NCBI GenBank assembly: GCA_019310385.1
Contig: JAFDEK010000003.1
Location: 55,183 to 119,182, forward strand
Direction of reading: 5' to 3'
DNA length: 64,000 nucleotides
Source of the DNA: Deltaproteobacteria bacterium
Lineage (GTDB): Bacteria > Myxococcota_A > UBA9160 > UBA4427
Shown: piece by piece, positions 31,356 to 46,425 of the stretch
Layout: every line of letters starts with the position of its first letter
How positions within the stretch are numbered: position 1 is the first letter of the stretch
Translations under genes and position numbers: made by a program
The notes under the pieces: model-generated
What the model saw: the letters and a program-made list of their open reading frames with translations, nothing else
Told to the model about the DNA's origin: nothing
Databases searched by the model: none

Positions 31356-34010
31356 CTAGAAGGCGGGACGATTGATTTCTCTCTTCGCTTTCTTCGCGGG
31401 CTGTTTGCCGGCGGGCTTCGGCGCCGTGCGTCCGATGTCGCCGACGGCGGGTGTTCCGCCGGAGATCAGTTCGGCGCGTGATCGGGAGGCCTCCACAGAG
31501 ACGACCCGTACCGTGCCGACCTTCTCCTCCATGCTGCCGAAGGACTGGCCGGTGTCCGGGTCGATCATCTCGGTACCGGGCCGCATGAGGTCGAGCAAGG
31601 TGCCCACCTCGAGGTCCCCGTCCTCGCCCCGGTTGAGGTAGACGGTGGTCTGGTCGGGGAGGAGTCCGATCACGCGGACCGGGTACACACGCTGGAGGAT
31701 CAACTTCACCGCCGAGGTGGTCAGCAGGTCGAGCAGCTCGCTCCCGTGGTCGCCGTCCTTCGGCAGGCGTTGGTCGACGGCGACCTGCTCGGCCGCCAGC
31801 ACGGAGCCTGCCCGCACGTCTACAACGCGAATCGAGAGCTTTGCTACCCCGGAGCTGCGCTTCTGGACCTCGTCGAGGAGCTCGATGTGCTTGGTCTCGG
31901 TCTCGATGCGAAAATCGGTGAGATCTCCATAGACCATGTAGTCCGAGCCGGAGAGCTGTTGGAGGTAGGCGCTGATGTCCTCGCCCTGGGTGGCGGCCTG
32001 GAAGATCTTCTCGTCGAGAACCTGGTCGATCTCCTTGCGCTCGAGCACCTCGAAACGGTTGGTCTGGGAGAGGCGGACGCCCAGGGTCCCGGCCAGGTCG
32101 CGGACGTAGCTGTGCTGGGAACTCTGCACCCGAGAGGCATCTCCCAGGCGGATCTTGCCCACCGCCAGGGTGGGTTTGGCCTTGCCGCCGCTGGGGACCC
32201 TTGCGTTGCGCGTGGACGAGGGTGAATCCGTCGCGTCCGGGCTGCGGCGGAGAATGTCGCCGACCTCGAGGCTGCTGCCCGGCGTCGCCTTGCCCCGGCT
32301 CCTGGCATCCTCGACAATGGCGACATCGACGCCGCCGATGAGGCTCTCCTGCACGCCAAGCTGGATCCCCGTGTCGGGATCGATGACGGCCTCGCCGGGC
32401 CGGAACGCCTCGAGGGTCTCGCCCCGCCGCAGGCCGCCGTCGAGGCCCCGGTTGATGTAGACCGTCCCGTCGGCCGAGATGGCCGCAACCTTGATCGGGT
32501 AGATGGCGTTGAGCAGGATCGTGACGAGCTCCGCCGAGTAGGCGTTGGCCAGGGTGGTGACGCTGCGGTCCCGGCTCGCGTTGGGATCGATGGCCTTGCG
32601 TATCTCGATATTGCGCGAGTCGAGGATGTCGCCCGAGCGTGCGTCGACGATACGGACCGTGCCGTCGACCCGCCCCACCGTCTGGGAGATGGTGCGCGTC
32701 GATCCCGGCAGCCGGGTCGACTCGCCCTGCAGGTCGAAGAGGGCCACGTTGCCGTATACCAGGTAGTCCGCGCCGGCGAGGGTGCCCATGGCGCTCCCCA
32801 TGCCGCGGTTGCCCGCGATCGCCTGGGCCTCCTGCTCGCGCAGGAGCTGATCCACCTCCTGGCGGTCGATCATCTGGAAGCGCTTGGTGGTCGCGAGGCC
32901 CGAGATGATGCGGTCGGTGAACAAAGACACAGTGGTGGAGTCGTGGTCGCCCGTAGCGCCGAAGTCGATGGTCCCCAGGGCGACCCGGGGGCGCTCCGCC
33001 CCACCCGCCGAGCTCTGTTTGAGGGGCGTTCCCGCCGCCACGGCGCTGGACGGAGCACGCGCCTCGGTGGGCTCCGCGGGGGCATCGACCAGCACGAGAT
33101 CTCCGACCATGAACGCGGTGCCGGAGGTCATCTGTGCGATGGACATGGTCTCGTTGACCTCGCTGAGCTCCAGGGAGCCCACCTTCGAGAGCAGCCGTCC
33201 CAGGGAGATGCCGCCGTCTATCACCTCCTTGCCCTCTCGCTTCACGACGTAGCGGTCACCGGGACCGACGCCGTCGTTCGTCCCCCGCGATACGACCAGC
33301 GGATCGATGCTCACGACCGTCGCGGGAAAGGTCACGTCGATGATGCGGGCCGCGGCTTCCTGGGCGAGCTGGTCGATGAAGGTGAAGTCGTCCGTGTCTG
33401 TGCTCATCCCGGCGTACACATTCTCGGTGAGCTGGGAGCGGATGCTTCCGGCTCCCATGACTTCGCCGCTCTCCACCCGTACGACGCGAAAGAGGAGCCG
33501 TCCGTCGCTGACTTCGACGGTACTCGTCCGGCCTTCACGGCTGTAGGGAACCGAGGTGGTCGTGGCCTGCCGGTTCTGGAGCTTCTCGAGCCGGGCAACA
33601 ACGAGGATGTCTGCTCCCACAGCGGTGCCGAGATCCTTGATGTCGTTGTCGGCATCCTTGAATTTCGCCAGGGCCCCGATGGCGAGGACCGTGAAGCCGC
33701 TGACCTCGGTCATGTTGCCGATGGACCCGTCGAGAGTCTGGGTCACGAAGTCGTCGGCGCGCTCCTGGCCGAAGCGCTGCTCCTCGACGACCTTGCGCAG
33801 GGCCTCCCGCTCCACCGGAACGAAGCGCCGACTCCGGGCGAGGCTCTGGAGAATGCGATCGGTGAGCGGATCGTTGAGGCCCACCACTGAGACGCGGGAA
33901 GGTGCCGTGCCCTCGATCGGTGTCGCGTGAGTGAGCGGGGCGATGGCTCCGAGAAGGAGCCCCGTGGCGATCATGAAGTGAAGTAGGTACAGGATTCCGG
34001 ATCGACGCAT
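31356..34010 (-). CDS. Secreted protein with three tandem CsgG/TolB-like + beta-domain modules
   Basis: Three module heads: RVSVVGLNDPLTDRILQSLARSRRFVPVEREALRKVVEEQ; RVALGTIDFG..FTDRIISGLATTKRFQMIDRQEVDQLL; TLAVGKIRLG..LAGTLGVRLSQTNRFEVLERKEIDQVL. Start set at the second Met, preceded by AAGGAG. Confidence 0.85.
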   Translation of the reverse strand: MRRSGILYLLHFMIATGLLLGAIAPLTHATPIEGTAPSRVSVVGLNDPLTDRILQSLARSRRFVPVEREALRKVVEEQRFGQERADDFVTQTLDGSIGNMTEVSGFTVLAIGALAKFKDADNDIKDLGTAVGADILVVARLEKLQNRQATTTSVPYSREGRTSTVEVSDGRLLFRVVRVESGEVMGAGSIRSQLTENVYAGMSTDTDDFTFIDQLAQEAAARIIDVTFPATVVSIDPLVVSRGTNDGVGPGDRYVVKREGKEVIDGGISLGRLLSKVGSLELSEVNETMSIAQMTSGTAFMVGDLVLVDAPAEPTEARAPSSAVAAGTPLKQSSAGGAERPRVALGTIDFGATGDHDSTTVSLFTDRIISGLATTKRFQMIDRQEVDQLLREQEAQAIAGNRGMGSAMGTLAGADYLVYGNVALFDLQGESTRLPGSTRTISQTVGRVDGTVRIVDARSGDILDSRNIEIRKAIDPNASRDRSVTTLANAYSAELVTILLNAIYPIKVAAISADGTVYINRGLDGGLRRGETLEAFRPGEAVIDPDTGIQLGVQESLIGGVDVAIVEDARSRGKATPGSSLEVGDILRRSPDATDSPSSTRNARVPSGGKAKPTLAVGKIRLGDASRVQSSQHSYVRDLAGTLGVRLSQTNRFEVLERKEIDQVLDEKIFQAATQGEDISAYLQQLSGSDYMVYGDLTDFRIETETKHIELLDEVQKRSSGVAKLSIRVVDVRAGSVLAAEQVAVDQRLPKDGDHGSELLDLLTTSAVKLILQRVYPVRVIGLLPDQTTVYLNRGEDGDLEVGTLLDLMRPGTEMIDPDTGQSFGSMEEKVGTVRVVSVEASRSRAELISGGTPAVGDIGRTAPKPAGKQPAKKAKREINRPAF

Positions 34011-34078
34011 GAAGGGTCTCCTTGGCAGCATGGCGAAGTGGCTGTAGCCGTTGCTTCCGGCGGGTCTGCGGGCAGGTC

Positions 34079-34978
34079 CTACTTCCTGATGATGAAGCCC
34101 TTCTCGACGCTGGTGTTCGGTGAGATGTCCAGCAGCTCGGCGATCGTGAACTTGGGATTGACCCGAGTCACCTTGATGGTCCCGACCTCACTCTCGGCGG
34201 AGCCGAGATTCTCTCCGGTATCGGGGTCGATGAGCGCGACGCCGGGGGAGAAGACGGTGAGGGTGTCGCCGACCTCGAGGCCGCCATCCTGCCCGCGGTT
34301 GATCCAGACCTGGTTCCCCTGGGCGTTGATGACCTTCATGGGGAAGACGCTGTCCACGAGCTGGTCCGCCATCTGGGCGGAGCTGTTCTTCGACAGCCGG
34401 GCGAAGTTCGACTTGGTCGGACTTCCAGTGTCGGTGTTGGCGAGTCGGGTCTTCAGCTTGAAGGAGCTGGTGGTGTCGAAGGTGCTCAGCACCTGGCCGG
34501 TCGTGGTATCCACGAGCTGGGCCGTGACGTGAAGCACGCCGGCGTCGGTGATCTTCCACTTGTTGTCGAGGTTCGGGACCGCCTTCGCCGAACGGTAGAA
34601 GCTGAAGCGCTGCACCGTCGGCAGGATCAGGTAGTTGGCGTTCGCCAGGGCCCCCGACCCGGCCGCGTCTCCCGCGAAGGCGTCGGAATCGGAGAGCTGC
34701 TGCTCCTCCCGGATGTCCTTCATGACATCCTTCTGACGGGAGACGATGTCGAACTTTCGCGTGGCGCGGATCGAGGCCTCCATGTCGGCGGTCAGGAGGC
34801 CGAGGTCGAGGTGATTGCGGGCCGCATGGCTGCCCTCGACCTCGTCGCCGAGCTTGGGCGTCTTGATCGCGACCCGGGGCTTGCCCGCGGCGGAGGCCAT
34901 CTGCGAGGCCAGGATCAGCGCACTGACGAGGACGAGCGGCAGGAGGCTCCTGCGAAGATTCGGAAGTCTTGAGTGCAA
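34079..34978 (-). CDS. CsgG-like secreted protein, single module
   Basis: Signal-like SLLPLVLVSALILASQMASA; PRVAIKTPKLGDEVEG...SIRATRKFDIVSRQKDVMKDIREEQQ; C-terminal VWINRGQDGGLEVGDTLTVFSPGVALIDPDTGENLG. TTG start inferred. Confidence 0.75.
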   Translation of the reverse strand: MHSRLPNLRRSLLPLVLVSALILASQMASAAGKPRVAIKTPKLGDEVEGSHAARNHLDLGLLTADMEASIRATRKFDIVSRQKDVMKDIREEQQLSDSDAFAGDAAGSGALANANYLILPTVQRFSFYRSAKAVPNLDNKWKITDAGVLHVTAQLVDTTTGQVLSTFDTTSSFKLKTRLANTDTGSPTKSNFARLSKNSSAQMADQLVDSVFPMKVINAQGNQVWINRGQDGGLEVGDTLTVFSPGVALIDPDTGENLGSAESEVGTIKVTRVNPKFTIAELLDISPNTSVEKGFIIRK

Positions 34979-35107
34979 GGTTGAAATCTCCGGTTCGTGG
35001 ACCGTTACGGGTGTGGGACGGCAGCGAGGTGGTGCGTCAGTATATGCGACTAGGGGCAATGATCTGACGGGAATATTTTCGAAAGCACCGGCTTGATGTA
35101 GAGAGGG

Positions 35108-35130
35108 GCGCAGCTCCTTGGGCGCTGCGC
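35108..35130. other. GC-rich hairpin in divergent intergenic region
   Basis: GCGCAGC-TCCTTGGGC-GCTGCGC, 7-bp perfect stem. Confidence 0.5.
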
Positions 35131-35589
35131 GCCACCCATGTTCGAAACCTGAAATCGTTCTATAATTCAAGCAGTTGGACCGTATTTTCTGTTCCATCAT
35201 TCGATCCCTCCTGCGGCTCGCTCGAGGCGACCCCGCCCCAGCGGCGGAGCTCCTCGTCAATTCGGTCTGCGTCGGATCGGGCCTTCCGGCTCGACCCGGC
35301 ACCGGCCAACTCCGCGACCGAGTCGACAACAACGAAGTGCAGCGTGGTCGCAGTTTGTTACCGGCACGGCTCGATCGGGCGATTTTCCTGGCGGGCTGAA
35401 GTCGTCCGGATCCAGGCCAGCGACAAAGGCCTTCATTCCTTGCATAGTCCCTTAGCGACGGCCGCCCGGCGCGAGCGAGCGGGCTGGAAACCAGTGGTAG
35501 GGAGGCCAGAGTTGAGATCCTCGCAGCAGGAGTGGCAACGCCGATCGACGGAGCGCCGGCGTGCCGCTGTCGGCAGGCGACGGAGCCCC

Positions 35590-38735: not shown

Positions 38736-38764
38736 TTGCCTGCCAGTCCAGAAGATGCTAAAGT
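38736..38764 (+). promoter_or_regulatory. Candidate promoter of the GbsR-like gene
   Basis: TTGCCT - 17 bp - TAAAGT (4/6 match to each sigma70 hexamer), just upstream of the TTCTGAAC box. Confidence 0.3.
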
Positions 38765-38773
38765 TTCACAATA

Positions 38774-38781
38774 TTCTGAAC
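38774..38781. promoter_or_regulatory. TTCTGAAC operator-like box 1
   Basis: aTTCTGAACga immediately upstream of the GbsR-like start codon. Confidence 0.55.
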
Positions 38782-38793
38782 GATAGGAAATGC

Positions 38794-39300
38794 ATGAAGA
38801 AGCGGGATGTCGAGAATTTCGTGGAGGCGTGGGGGGCGATGGGGGCTCTCATGGGCTTCAGCGCGTCTACGGCCCGGGTTCACGCCTTGCTCATCGCCTC
38901 GGATCAGGGGCTTTGCCTGGACGACATCGTCGACGGTCTCGGGATCAGCCGGGGCAATGCCAGCATGTGCCTCAAGGAGCTGCGCAGCTGGGGGGTCGTG
39001 TCTCGGGCTGGGAAGACCGCCGGCGACCGTCGCGACTATTTCGAGACGGAGTCCGACATCTGGAAGATGGCGTACACGATTGCCAGCGAGCGCAAGCGGC
39101 GCGACTTCGAGCCGGCGCTGCGCGGGCTGGAGGAAGTGCTGGGGCAGGTGAGCGGGAAGGGGCCCGCCGAAGCGCGCCTCGCCGAAATGGGGGAGTTCCT
39201 CGCGGTGATGAAGAGGATTGCAGACCACTTGCTGGGAAATGAGGCCGCGGCAAAGCAGCTCATCCTCATGCTGGGGGGGACAAAGGGGAGCGACGAGTAG
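38794..39300 (+). CDS. GbsR/MarR family transcriptional regulator
   Basis: FSASTARVHALLIASDQGLCLDDIVDGLGISRGNASMCLKELRSWGVVSRAGKTAGDRRDYFETE. Confidence 0.9.
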   Translation: MKKRDVENFVEAWGAMGALMGFSASTARVHALLIASDQGLCLDDIVDGLGISRGNASMCLKELRSWGVVSRAGKTAGDRRDYFETESDIWKMAYTIASERKRRDFEPALRGLEEVLGQVSGKGPAEARLAEMGEFLAVMKRIADHLLGNEAAAKQLILMLGGTKGSDE

Positions 39301-39314
39301 CCCCTTTTTTGTCC
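39278..39314 (+). terminator. Intrinsic terminator-like hairpin overlapping the GbsR stop codon
   Basis: GGACAAAGGGG-AGCGACGAGTAG-CCCCTTTTTTGTCC. Confidence 0.55.
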
Positions 39315-39329
39315 ATAAGGTTCAAAGAG

Positions 39330-39378
39330 TTCTGAACAACAAGAAAGTATTTCAGAACGACACAGACCATTTCTGAAC
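39330..39378. promoter_or_regulatory. Array of three TTCWGAAC operator-like boxes
   Basis: TTCTGAAC 39330-39337, TTCAGAAC 39351-39358, TTCTGAAC 39371-39378; spacing 21 and 20 bp. Confidence 0.6.
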
Positions 39379-39401
39379 GAGAAAGACCATGGAGAGCGAT
39401 C

Positions 39402-40313
39402 ATGACCCAGACTGACCTCGTTACAGGTGCCTTCAGCTTCACGGGTAGCTTTGTTGCAGAGCTGCTTCTTCAGCGTGGGCACACACTTCGAACACTCACC
39501 GGTCACCCCAATCCGGCTCACCCCCTCGCGGATCGAGTCGACACGCGGGCCTTCTGCTTCGATGACCCGGTAGCTCTTGCCGAGCATCTCAAAGGGGTAC
39601 ACACCCTCTACAACACCTATTGGGTTCGCTTCGATCACGGACGGAACACCTACGAAGGGGCCGTTCACAACACCCAGGTGCTCTTTCGCGCCGCCCGGGA
39701 CGCGGGTGTCCAGCGCATCGTCCACGTCAGCATCGCAAACCCTTCGCTGAACTCTTCACTTCCCTACTACCGCGGAAAGGCGCAGCTGGAAGAGGATCTC
39801 CAGGAGCTGGGTGTGGATTTTGCCATCCTTCGCCCAACCGTCATCTTCGGTGAGGGCGGCCTGCTCATCAACAACATCGGCTGGTTGCTACGACGCTTTC
39901 CCCTCTTTGCCGTCGTCGGCGATGGGGAGTATCGGATGCAACCCGTCTTCGTCGAGGATCTCGCCGAACTCATGGTTGATGCAGGAGCCTCGCGCGAGAA
40001 CACGGTCATCGATGCCGTCGGGCCGGAGACCTACAGCTACCTCGAACTCGTCAAACTCGTGCGAGAGATGACTGGCTCACGATCGAAGATCGTTCACGTG
40101 GGGCCACGGCTCGGGTACGCACTTGGGCGCATGCTTGGGTGGGTGGTGCGCGATGTGCTGATCACGCGGGAAGAGATCGTGGGCCTTCTCGACGACCTCC
40201 TGGTCTCTCACGAGTCGCCGCGTTGCAGGACCTCTTTTCGGCAGTGGCTGGAGCGGAGCCGGGGAGTGGTCGGGCGTGGCTATATCTCGGAGCTCGACCT
40301 TCACTACAAGTAG
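39402..40313 (+). CDS. NAD(P)-binding atypical SDR / epimerase-like protein
   Basis: DLVTGAFSFTGSFVAELLLQRGH, ILRPTVIFGEGG. Confidence 0.87.
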   Translation: MTQTDLVTGAFSFTGSFVAELLLQRGHTLRTLTGHPNPAHPLADRVDTRAFCFDDPVALAEHLKGVHTLYNTYWVRFDHGRNTYEGAVHNTQVLFRAARDAGVQRIVHVSIANPSLNSSLPYYRGKAQLEEDLQELGVDFAILRPTVIFGEGGLLINNIGWLLRRFPLFAVVGDGEYRMQPVFVEDLAELMVDAGASRENTVIDAVGPETYSYLELVKLVREMTGSRSKIVHVGPRLGYALGRMLGWVVRDVLITREEIVGLLDDLLVSHESPRCRTSFRQWLERSRGVVGRGYISELDLHYK

Positions 40314-43283: not shown

Positions 43284-44060
43284 GTGACCGAACTCATTCG
43301 CAGCGAACGGCGGGGCGCAGTTGCGCTCGTGACCCTCGCCAGCCCCGACACCCTGAATTCCTTGAGCACCGCCATGCTGCAGGCCCTGGCCGCTGCGTTG
43401 GGCGAAGTTGCCGGCGACGAGAGCCTTCGGGCCCTGGTGCTCACCGGCGAAGGGCGGGCCTTCGCGGCCGGCGCCGACATCGAGGAGATGAGTGCCATGA
43501 CGGCCATCGAGGGTGAGGCCTTCAGCCGCCTGGGCCACGAGACCTTCGGTGCCCTCGAGGCCCTGGCGATCCCCACGCTTGCGGCGGTAAACGGCTTCGC
43601 CCTGGGCGGAGGCTGTGAGCTGGCCCTGGCCTGTGACTGGATCTATGCCTCGACGAAGGCCCGCTTCGGCCAGCCCGAGGTGAAGCTGGGTCTGATCCCG
43701 GGCTTCGGCGGAACCAGTCGTCTGGTGCGCCGGGTGGGGATCGGCTGGGCGAAGGAGCTGATTCTCGCGGCCGAGAACCTGAAGGCCGACGAAGCCATGC
43801 GCATCGGTCTGGTAAACCGGGTCTTCGAGCCCGACGAGCTGCTCGACAGCGCCATGATGGCTGGCCAGGCCATCGCCGAGCGCGGGCCCCTGGCGGTGCG
43901 CATCGCCAAGCGGGTCCTCCAGGAGGGCCAGGACGCGGACCTGCGCCTCGCCAACACACTCGAGCAGAACGCCTTCGGCCTGGTCTTTGCCAGCGAGGAC
44001 AGCAAGGAGGGCACCAAGGCCTTCCTCGAGAAGCGCGACCCCGAATTCAATGGCCGGTAG
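43284..44060 (+). CDS. Enoyl-CoA hydratase/isomerase family protein
   Basis: AFAAGADIEEMSAM, NGFALGGGCELALACDWIYAS, FGQPEVKLGLIPGFGGTSRL. Confidence 0.93.
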   Translation: MTELIRSERRGAVALVTLASPDTLNSLSTAMLQALAAALGEVAGDESLRALVLTGEGRAFAAGADIEEMSAMTAIEGEAFSRLGHETFGALEALAIPTLAAVNGFALGGGCELALACDWIYASTKARFGQPEVKLGLIPGFGGTSRLVRRVGIGWAKELILAAENLKADEAMRIGLVNRVFEPDELLDSAMMAGQAIAERGPLAVRIAKRVLQEGQDADLRLANTLEQNAFGLVFASEDSKEGTKAFLEKRDPEFNGR

Positions 44061-44106
44061 ACGATTCCCGTTTCGACCGCCGGCGGAATCGAAGGAGAGT
44101 GACACC

Positions 44107-46425
44107 ATGAGCTACGCACGGACCGGACGCCGCAACTGCCTGCAGACCCTCACGGCACTCCTTCTGGTCTTGCCCTTTGCCTTCTCGCTCTCCCAGAGCG
44201 CCTCTTCCGAGGCGTCGCCGGAGTTCAAGGGCAAGATCGCGAAGCGCTATGAAGACAGCGTCGAGTGGTGGCCAGCGCCGATCGAGCCTCCGGCGGGTGC
44301 GCCCAACGTCATCATCTTCCTGCTCGACGATACGGGCTTCGCGCAGATCGGCTCGTTTGGAGGGCTGATCGAGACGCCGGTCATCGACCAGCTGGCGAAT
44401 GACGGCTTGCGCTACAACAACTTCCACACCACCGCTCTGTGCTCGCCCTCGCGGGCCTCCTTGATGGCCGGCCGCAATCCCCACTCGATCGGCCTCGGCA
44501 GCCACGCCCTCACCGCCATGGGCTTCCCGGGCTACAACGCGATGATGCCCCCGACCGCCAAGTCCGTCGCGAACTACCTCGAGGAGGCGGGCTACATCAA
44601 CTACGCATTGGGGAAGTGGGACCATACGCCCCTCTACGAGGTGTCCCAGGTGGGGCCCTTCGATCGCTGGCCCAGCGGCGAGGGCTTCCAACACGCCTAC
44701 ACCTTCATGGCCGCCGACGTTCACCAGTTCGTTCCCGTGATGTGGAACGACCATAGCCCCGAGCCCTACCGAAAATCCGAGCATCTCGACAAGGACCTCG
44801 CGGACCGCGCGATCGAGTGGATCACCGGCCACAAGTCCATCAAGTCCCAAATTCCCTTCATGATGCTGTGGGCCTCGGGCTCCATGCACTCTCCCCACCA
44901 CACTCCGCCCGAGTATCTCGAGAAGTACAAAGGCAAGTTCGACATGGGGTGGGATGCCGCGCGCGAGCAGATCTTTGCCCAGCAGAAGAAGCTCGGCGTC
45001 GTCCCGGCGAATACGAAGCTGAGCGAGCGCATTCCCGAGATCCCCGCCTGGGATTCACTGGGCGCCGACGAGAAGAAGCTCTACGCCCGGCAGATGGAGG
45101 TCTTCGCGGCGCAGCTCGAGCACGTCGACCACCAGATCGGTCGCGTCGTCGAGACCCTCCGGCGTATCGGCGAACTCGACAACACGCTGATCTTCGTGAC
45201 CTCCGACAACGGCGCGAGCGGTGAGGGCGGCCTCGCGGGCACCTTCAACGAGACCTACGTGCTCAACGGCCTGCAGACACCCTTCGATGCCAACATGCGC
45301 CACTACGACAGCTGGGGCGACGCCACCAGCTATCCCCACTACCACGCGGGCTGGGCGATGGCGGGCAATACCCCCTTCAAGTACTTCAAGCAGAGCGAGC
45401 ACCGCGGCGGGCAGCACGACGCGATGGTGGTTCACTGGCCCGAAGGGATCCAGGCGAAGGGCGAGGTGCGCAGTCAGTACCACCACATCACCGATGTTGC
45501 GCCGACGATCCTCGAGGCCGCTGGCGTCGTGATGCCCGAGGAGATCCACGGCGTCGAGCAGCAGCCCCTGGACGGCGTCTCCATGGCGTACTCCTTCGAC
45601 GCAGCCGAGGCTCCGAACCGCAAGCAGCGCCAGTATTACGAGATGTTCGGCAACCGGGCGATCTGGGTCGATGGCTGGAAGGCGGTGACGCTCCACGCCA
45701 ACCGGATGCCCTGGGAGCTCGCGGTCGTGCTTCCCTTCGATCAGGACGAGTGGGAGCTCTACAACGTCGAAGAGGACTTCTCCGAGAGCACGAACCTGGC
45801 GGCGAAGCACCCCGAGAAGCTCGCCAAGCTGCAGAAGATCTTCGACGAGGAGGCGTGGAAGTACAACGTCTACCCCCTCTACGACGACATGATCAAGCGG
45901 GTTGCTTCCCAGCAGGATCGCCTCTTCGGCGACCAGAAGGAGTTCGTGTACTTCCACCCCGGCGCCTTCCGCATCGCCGAGAAGGCCTCCGTACCGGTCA
46001 AGAACCGATCCCACGACATCGTGACGAACCTCGATCTCACGGGCAAGGAAGAAGGCGTGATCGTGGCGGTGGGGGGCATGACGGGCGGCTTCACGATGTT
46101 CATCCAGGACGGCCGCCTCTACTACGTGTACAACTACCTCGACGGCGTCTACTACACCCTGAAATCATCCAAGCTCCCCAAGGGCAAGACGGAGCTGAAG
46201 TTCGTGTTCACGAAGACCGGGGAGTTCGCGGGTACGGGTGAGCTCTACGTCAACGGGGACAAGGTCGACCAGGCCGAGATGCCGAAGATGCACATCAGCA
46301 CCTACTCCCTGGCCGAGACCTTCGACGTCGGCAGGGACACGGGCACCCAGGTGTCCAAGCTCTACCGGGATCCCTTTCCCTTCCGGGGGGATCTCGATCG
46401 GGTCGTGGTCACGCTGAAGCCGTGA
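44107..46425 (+). CDS. Arylsulfatase (type I, Cys-type)
   Basis: ILFTTALCSPSRASLMAGR-type signature (FHTTALCSPSRASLMAGRN), NVIIFLLDDTGFAQIGSFGG. Confidence 0.94.
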   Translation: MSYARTGRRNCLQTLTALLLVLPFAFSLSQSASSEASPEFKGKIAKRYEDSVEWWPAPIEPPAGAPNVIIFLLDDTGFAQIGSFGGLIETPVIDQLANDGLRYNNFHTTALCSPSRASLMAGRNPHSIGLGSHALTAMGFPGYNAMMPPTAKSVANYLEEAGYINYALGKWDHTPLYEVSQVGPFDRWPSGEGFQHAYTFMAADVHQFVPVMWNDHSPEPYRKSEHLDKDLADRAIEWITGHKSIKSQIPFMMLWASGSMHSPHHTPPEYLEKYKGKFDMGWDAAREQIFAQQKKLGVVPANTKLSERIPEIPAWDSLGADEKKLYARQMEVFAAQLEHVDHQIGRVVETLRRIGELDNTLIFVTSDNGASGEGGLAGTFNETYVLNGLQTPFDANMRHYDSWGDATSYPHYHAGWAMAGNTPFKYFKQSEHRGGQHDAMVVHWPEGIQAKGEVRSQYHHITDVAPTILEAAGVVMPEEIHGVEQQPLDGVSMAYSFDAAEAPNRKQRQYYEMFGNRAIWVDGWKAVTLHANRMPWELAVVLPFDQDEWELYNVEEDFSESTNLAAKHPEKLAKLQKIFDEEAWKYNVYPLYDDMIKRVASQQDRLFGDQKEFVYFHPGAFRIAEKASVPVKNRSHDIVTNLDLTGKEEGVIVAVGGMTGGFTMFIQDGRLYYVYNYLDGVYYTLKSSKLPKGKTELKFVFTKTGEFAGTGELYVNGDKVDQAEMPKMHISTYSLAETFDVGRDTGTQVSKLYRDPFPFRGDLDRVVVTLKP

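Follow-up and report, generated by a model that had tools for sequence, protein, structure and literature searches.

Matched 18-bp dyads suggest a CydE-like local switch acting on a GbsR-type regulator gene and its neighbouring SDR gene

Which sequences around a GbsR/MarR-type regulator gene serve as its operators, and what would the protein control through them? The question arose from a sequence-only reading of the 64-kb stretch of DNA analysed here (the window), in which four near-identical, phased TTCWGAAC boxes were taken as candidate binding sites for autoregulation and for control of the next gene, that of an NAD(P)-binding protein identified here as an atypical short-chain dehydrogenase/reductase (SDR). 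The four boxes were found as described, on the + strand at 38774-38781, 39330-39337, 39351-39358 and 39371-39378, with spacings of 21 and 20 bp between the last three; the box at 39330 can also be read on the - strand (GTTCTGAAC). The longer form TTCWGAACGA held for three of the four and failed at 39330, which reads TTCTGAACAA. Both open reading frames are likewise as given (Table 1). When the two non-coding stretches (100 and 101 bp) were dinucleotide-shuffled (n=5000, both strands counted), TTCWGAAC was met 0.045 times on average and twice at most, against five times in the real sequence, a count equalled by 0/5000 shuffles. Over the genome (4.93 Mb in 215 contigs, about 88% complete) it gave 85 strand-matches at about 72 distinct places, or some 1 per 68 kb, and TTCWGAACGA gave 8 matches, 3 of which lie at the regulator-SDR locus. 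This genome-wide scan, which had been proposed as a check, thus returned a scarce box and not the motif frequent at random positions that had been named as a refutation.

Comparative footprinting traced the conservation to an 18-bp dyad, TTTCAnAAnnTTCTGAAC, composed of two 8-bp half-sites that are mutual reverse complements with 2 bp between them (8-2-8). It is present once before the regulator gene (operator 1) and once before the SDR gene (operator 2), and the box at 38774 forms the right half of the first, that at 39330 the right half of the second. Since TTCWGAA, the core of a half-site, reads as a palindrome in its own right, each right half had been taken for a complete one; four equivalent 8-bp binding sites give way to a bipartite one. 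An operator matrix built from other loci alone, with the window sites left out, ranked 38764 first and 39320 second in the 64-kb window, while the third site reached 8.2 bits. With leave-one-locus-out matrices, the annotated dyad came out on top in each of the regions tested, and no more than 5/1000 shuffles did as well. Operator 2 is the weaker of the two dyads (Table 1).

Table 1. Features of the regulator-SDR locus in the window, and dyads of three further pair-carrying loci.
Feature	Coordinates	Strand	Remarks
Candidate regulator promoter, TTGCCT-17-TAAAGT	38736..38764	+	-10 overlaps first base of operator 1
Operator 1 (predicted), TTTCACAATATTCTGAAC	38764..38781	+	5' of regulator gene; 27.3 bits, 0/5000 shuffles; kept in L013
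GbsR/CydE-type MarR-family regulator, 168 aa, recognition helix ISRGNASMCLKEL	38794..39300	+	PDB 1ku9, CudC and MarR_2 matches
Possible terminator between regulator and SDR genes	39277..39314	+	G-rich arm, loop over stop codon, CCCC arm, T-run
Operator 2 (predicted), GTTCAAAGAGTTCTGAAC	39320..39337	+	5' of SDR gene; 18.6 bits, 11/5000 shuffles; L013 version GTTCAAAAGATTCTGAAA
Extra half-site unit, TTCAGAACGACACAGACCAT	39351..39370	+	tandem repeat; operator score 0.4 bits, partner half missing; absent from L013
Second copy of half-site unit, TTCTGAACGAGAAAGACCAT	39371..39390	+	17/20 identical to 39351 unit; -7.9 bits; absent from L013
Atypical SDR (NAD(P)-binding, NDUFA9-like), 303 aa, presumed target	39402..40313	+	Pfam and PDB matches
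Regulator/SDR dyads, L129			TTTCAATCGAAAGTGAAC / TTTCACAAAATTCTGAAC
Regulator/SDR dyads, L130			TTTCAGAAAGTTCTGAAA / GTTCAGTTTATTCTGAAC
Regulator/SDR dyads, L132			TTTCACTCCACAGTGAAC / TTTCATTTCTTTCTGAAC

The designation of the regulator as GbsR/MarR-type was borne out by a match of its residues 9-88 to MJ223 (PDB 1ku9; phmmer E 6.3e-10), the winged-helix structural template of the GbsR-type subfamily; the match points to the fold as well. Its score with NCBIfam CudC (NF047500), 28 bits (1.7e-6) against an equivalog cut-off of 218, is too low to class it as the choline regulator CudC, and with Pfam MarR_2 (PF12802) it reached 22.8 bits (1e-4), below the gathering score of 27; by this measure it is only a distant relative of MarR_2. 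The SDR matched Pfam Epimerase (6.8e-13) and NAD_binding_10 (8e-11), and its closest solved structures were an NAD-dependent epimerase/dehydratase (PDB 9g83, 2e-14) and complex I NDUFA9 chains (1e-11). Elsewhere in the window, two adjoining and mutually alike ORFs on the - strand (31356-34031 and 34079-35332) appeared CsgG-like by eye, and a long ORF at 43987-46425 arylsulfatase-like.

A generic promoter and terminator scan yielded no match above threshold, the candidate regulator promoter included. By comparison among relatives, six regulator promoters have a candidate -10 hexamer no more than 2 bp from the edge of the operator, which would put the start region under a bound dimer. The -35 is TTGACA or TTGACG in L130, L129 and L132, the L130 promoter being TTGACA-17-TAACTT; in L013, the -10 adjoining the operator is that of the second-ranked candidate. 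No convincing promoter was found for the SDR gene. Past the regulator stop codon, a C-rich arm runs into a stretch of Ts in the window, L013, L129 and L130, and the putative terminator of the window folds with -18.9 kcal/mol, a value not significant against shuffles (z -1.24). The layout suggests that regulator and SDR gene may lie on separate transcripts.

The nearest relative, L013 (genome G037), carries the same gene pair, with a regulator 81-82% and an SDR 80% identical to those of the window. Alignment of its non-coding DNA with the window revealed TTTCAnAA...TCTGAAC in common 5' of the regulator gene and GTTCAAA...TTCTGAA 5' of the SDR gene, and no counterpart to boxes 39351 and 39371. 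In a phylum-wide search with the SDR, 9/377 genomes had a match at E below 1e-60; besides the window and L013, the regulator stands directly upstream of the SDR in L129, L130 and L132 (regulator 43-49%, SDR 45-47% identical to the window). Dyads, some of them degenerate, occur 5' of both genes in all four of these further genomes, which provides the conservation upstream of orthologues that had been named as a further check. The L129 SDR dyad TTTCACAAAATTCTGAAC differs from the window regulator dyad in 1/18 bases. At another locus, L131, a dyad-like TTTCAAAATACTGAAA (1474-1491) lies just 5' of the start of an SDR homologue for which no adjoining regulator was detected.

Similarly, each of the 11 close regulator homologues besides the window (E below 1e-23 in the phylum-wide search) has a dyad before its own start codon, in full or, for L129/L134, L132/L136, L137, L138 and L140, in degenerate form. 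The full form was again found at homologues more distant than L013, as TTTCAGAACATACTGAAA in L011 and TTTCAGAAATTTCTGAAA in L012, and dyads are also present at L085, L078 and L060, all Betaproteobacteria. The site score fell to chance level in the more distant homologues of the phylum-wide regulator search, L142-L157, L159 being an exception among such homologues with a weak match (12/16). The recognition helix begins with SRGN in the close set and with SRSN or ARSN in the rows from Betaproteobacteria, Chloroflexi and Latescibacterota; three distant rows of the alignment (L142-L144) have none of these. This association of helix and dyad is correlative and is what would be expected if the regulator reads the dyad. 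In many Burkholderiales (L022, L072, L073, L037, L068 and others) a regulator homologue is followed about 0.1-2 kb on by an NDUFA9-like SDR, 28-32% identical to that of the window, and a related dyad such as TTTCTGTCTTGACAGAAA, containing a -35-like TTGACA, lies upstream of the regulator homologue.

Among characterized proteins a close counterpart is CydE, known from Alishewanella sp. WH16-1, where this GbsR-type protein represses cydE-cydAB and sulfate is the reported inducer (PMC6096048). Its DNase I footprint, in the promoter of its own, repressed operon, protects TATTTCAGAAATTTCTGAAAGTTCA (PMC6096048). This operator includes TTTCAGAAATTTCTGAAA, which agrees with operator 1 (TTTCACAATATTCTGAAC at 38764) in 14/18 positions and recurs unchanged as the dyad of L012 and of L085; the window regulator thus shows the operator form of the CydE/CioR group, TTTCAGAAnnTTCTGAAA, near its own start codon. 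The footprint also covers a second, unrelated sequence (PMC6096048), and the dyad alone therefore leaves the full recognition rule unfixed. Both CydE and the candidate regulator of the window are GbsR-type MarR proteins with an operator, predicted for the latter, at their own promoter; they differ in target, which is cydAB for CydE and in the window presumably an SDR gene that has a predicted operator to itself, with no cytochrome bd and no adjacent cydAB or cioAB. In a tree from which CydE itself was left out, the regulator falls outside the clade of the cydAB-linked homologues L060, L078, L084 and L085 and groups with L013, L011, L012 and other SDR-linked regulators. Placed outside the cydAB-linked rows and lacking a cydAB neighbour, it is not classed as a CydE, although it would work in the same manner. 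The cydA-linked homologues L078 and L085 share 40-41% of their residues with the window regulator, and they have the dyad too; their near-perfect versions, TTTCAGAAATTACTGAAA and TTTCAGAAATTTCTGAAA respectively, are likely operators of CioR/CydE type.

CioR of Chromobacterium violaceum is likewise a GbsR-type autorepressor and binds the promoter of its own operon; unlike the window regulator, it controls cioAB within that single operon (PMC11837568). GbsR of Bacillus subtilis is a roadblock to transcription past the start site, through a different operator with a 4-bp spacer in gbsAB (PMC7396694). GbsR and OpcR share with the window regulator the MJ223/1ku9 fold template, which places them in one family, and a repeat near the start site, repression following in their case when it is bound, whereas their A/T-rich operators have other sequences and spacers and they control genes for choline and glycine betaine (PMC7396694). 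EctR of Methylomicrobium alcaliphilum, of MarR type, also has an operator of paired 8-bp half-sites with a 2-bp gap (review PMC5924519); the likeness is one of layout, and EctR belongs to another subgroup with an ectoine gene target (PMC5924519). No SDR target of a GbsR-type regulator was found described in the literature examined.

We therefore consider it probable, at roughly 85%, that a CydE-like GbsR-type repressor binds dyads at its own gene and at the SDR gene and represses both until a ligand releases it. A regulator dimer would bind the 18-bp dyad; at operator 1, on the transcription start region of the regulator gene, this would result in self-repression, and at the dyad before the downstream gene in repression of the SDR. 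Release by a ligand would then derepress both genes. Autoregulation with SDR control, the part of the sequence-only reading that is well supported, is favoured because conserved dyads stand at both genes and a footprinted operator has a closely similar sequence; its four phased boxes are not retained. From these comparisons we infer that this regulator binds the dyads, that it represses and does not activate, that it hinders RNA polymerase sterically and that there is an inducer.

The boxes at 39351 and 39371 could enlarge this picture if the element upstream of the SDR gene were a cooperative multi-site operator, in which a dyad and two half-sites hold two or three dimers on one face of the DNA. 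The spacings of 21 and 20 bp, the close resemblance of the half-sites to TTTCWGAA and the two protected sites of the CydE promoter (PMC6096048) speak for such an arrangement. It is nevertheless somewhat unlikely, given that both boxes lie without a partner half in a 20-bp tandem duplicate missing in L013. By score they are lone half-sites and not operators, and their regular spacing, earlier read as helical phasing on one face, results from the duplication and hence offers no independent evidence of designed phasing. A lineage-specific half-site duplication that may at most strengthen binding would account for them. An attempt to unite the unit at the regulator box with those at the SDR boxes in one longer repeat was rejected, as clear likeness outside the core is limited to the 39351 and 39371 units.

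That the regulator activates the SDR gene, instead of repressing it, is improbable: the SDR promoter has no clear candidate, so that operator 2 is not placed relative to a start site, but the characterized relatives GbsR, OpcR, OpuAR, CydE and CioR are repressors and operator 1 adjoins the -10. Still less credible is a scheme in which the dyads serve another regulator and the GbsR-type gene merely adjoins them, since the dyad tracks this gene across contexts (SDR, cydAB and others) and across phyla, is mostly missing where the recognition helix of the homologue has changed, and resembles the footprint of a GbsR-type protein, CydE (PMC6096048). The core TTCWGAA is admittedly short and one perfect 16-bp match falls within a secretin-like coding region; yet the shuffles never equalled the box count and dyads are kept at both genes in five genomes, which makes chance or non-regulatory repeats extremely improbable.

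The reach of the predicted repressor was estimated by a pattern search of the incomplete genome. In its 4.93 Mb the 16-bp core TTCANANNNTTCTGAA is matched perfectly at three places, two of which are the operators, so that the regulon is probably local: within the limits of this search, the regulator would act on its own locus only. The third match, at C202:26854, was rejected as a regulon member, being inside the secretin-like ORF. The pattern TTTCANNNNNNNNTGAAC occurs at three other genomic places, and the relative G037 contains two further perfect matches to the core elsewhere. The gene pair itself (38794-40313) was absent from 29 other genomes of the same family that were searched, and is 80-82% identical in G037:C801, whose genome belongs to a different family within the order; together these suggest horizontal transfer or wide loss.

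An autoregulated local switch, largely ordinary apart from its predicted SDR target as a new element, is thus well supported on comparative grounds. A broader proposal, that a CydE-like repressor and an NDUFA9-like SDR with matched operators form a conserved module, a local redox- or NAD(P)-linked switch spread between families, with tandem duplication here building a multi-site operator, is offered as speculation and is rather unlikely as a whole. The footprinted CydE operator is now tied to a wider GbsR-type branch in several phyla. For the SDR-linked subgroup, of which no studied member was found in the literature, the analysis predicts both an operator and a target gene. With what appears to be a near single-locus regulon, this subgroup would therefore make a simple test case for the ligand sensed.
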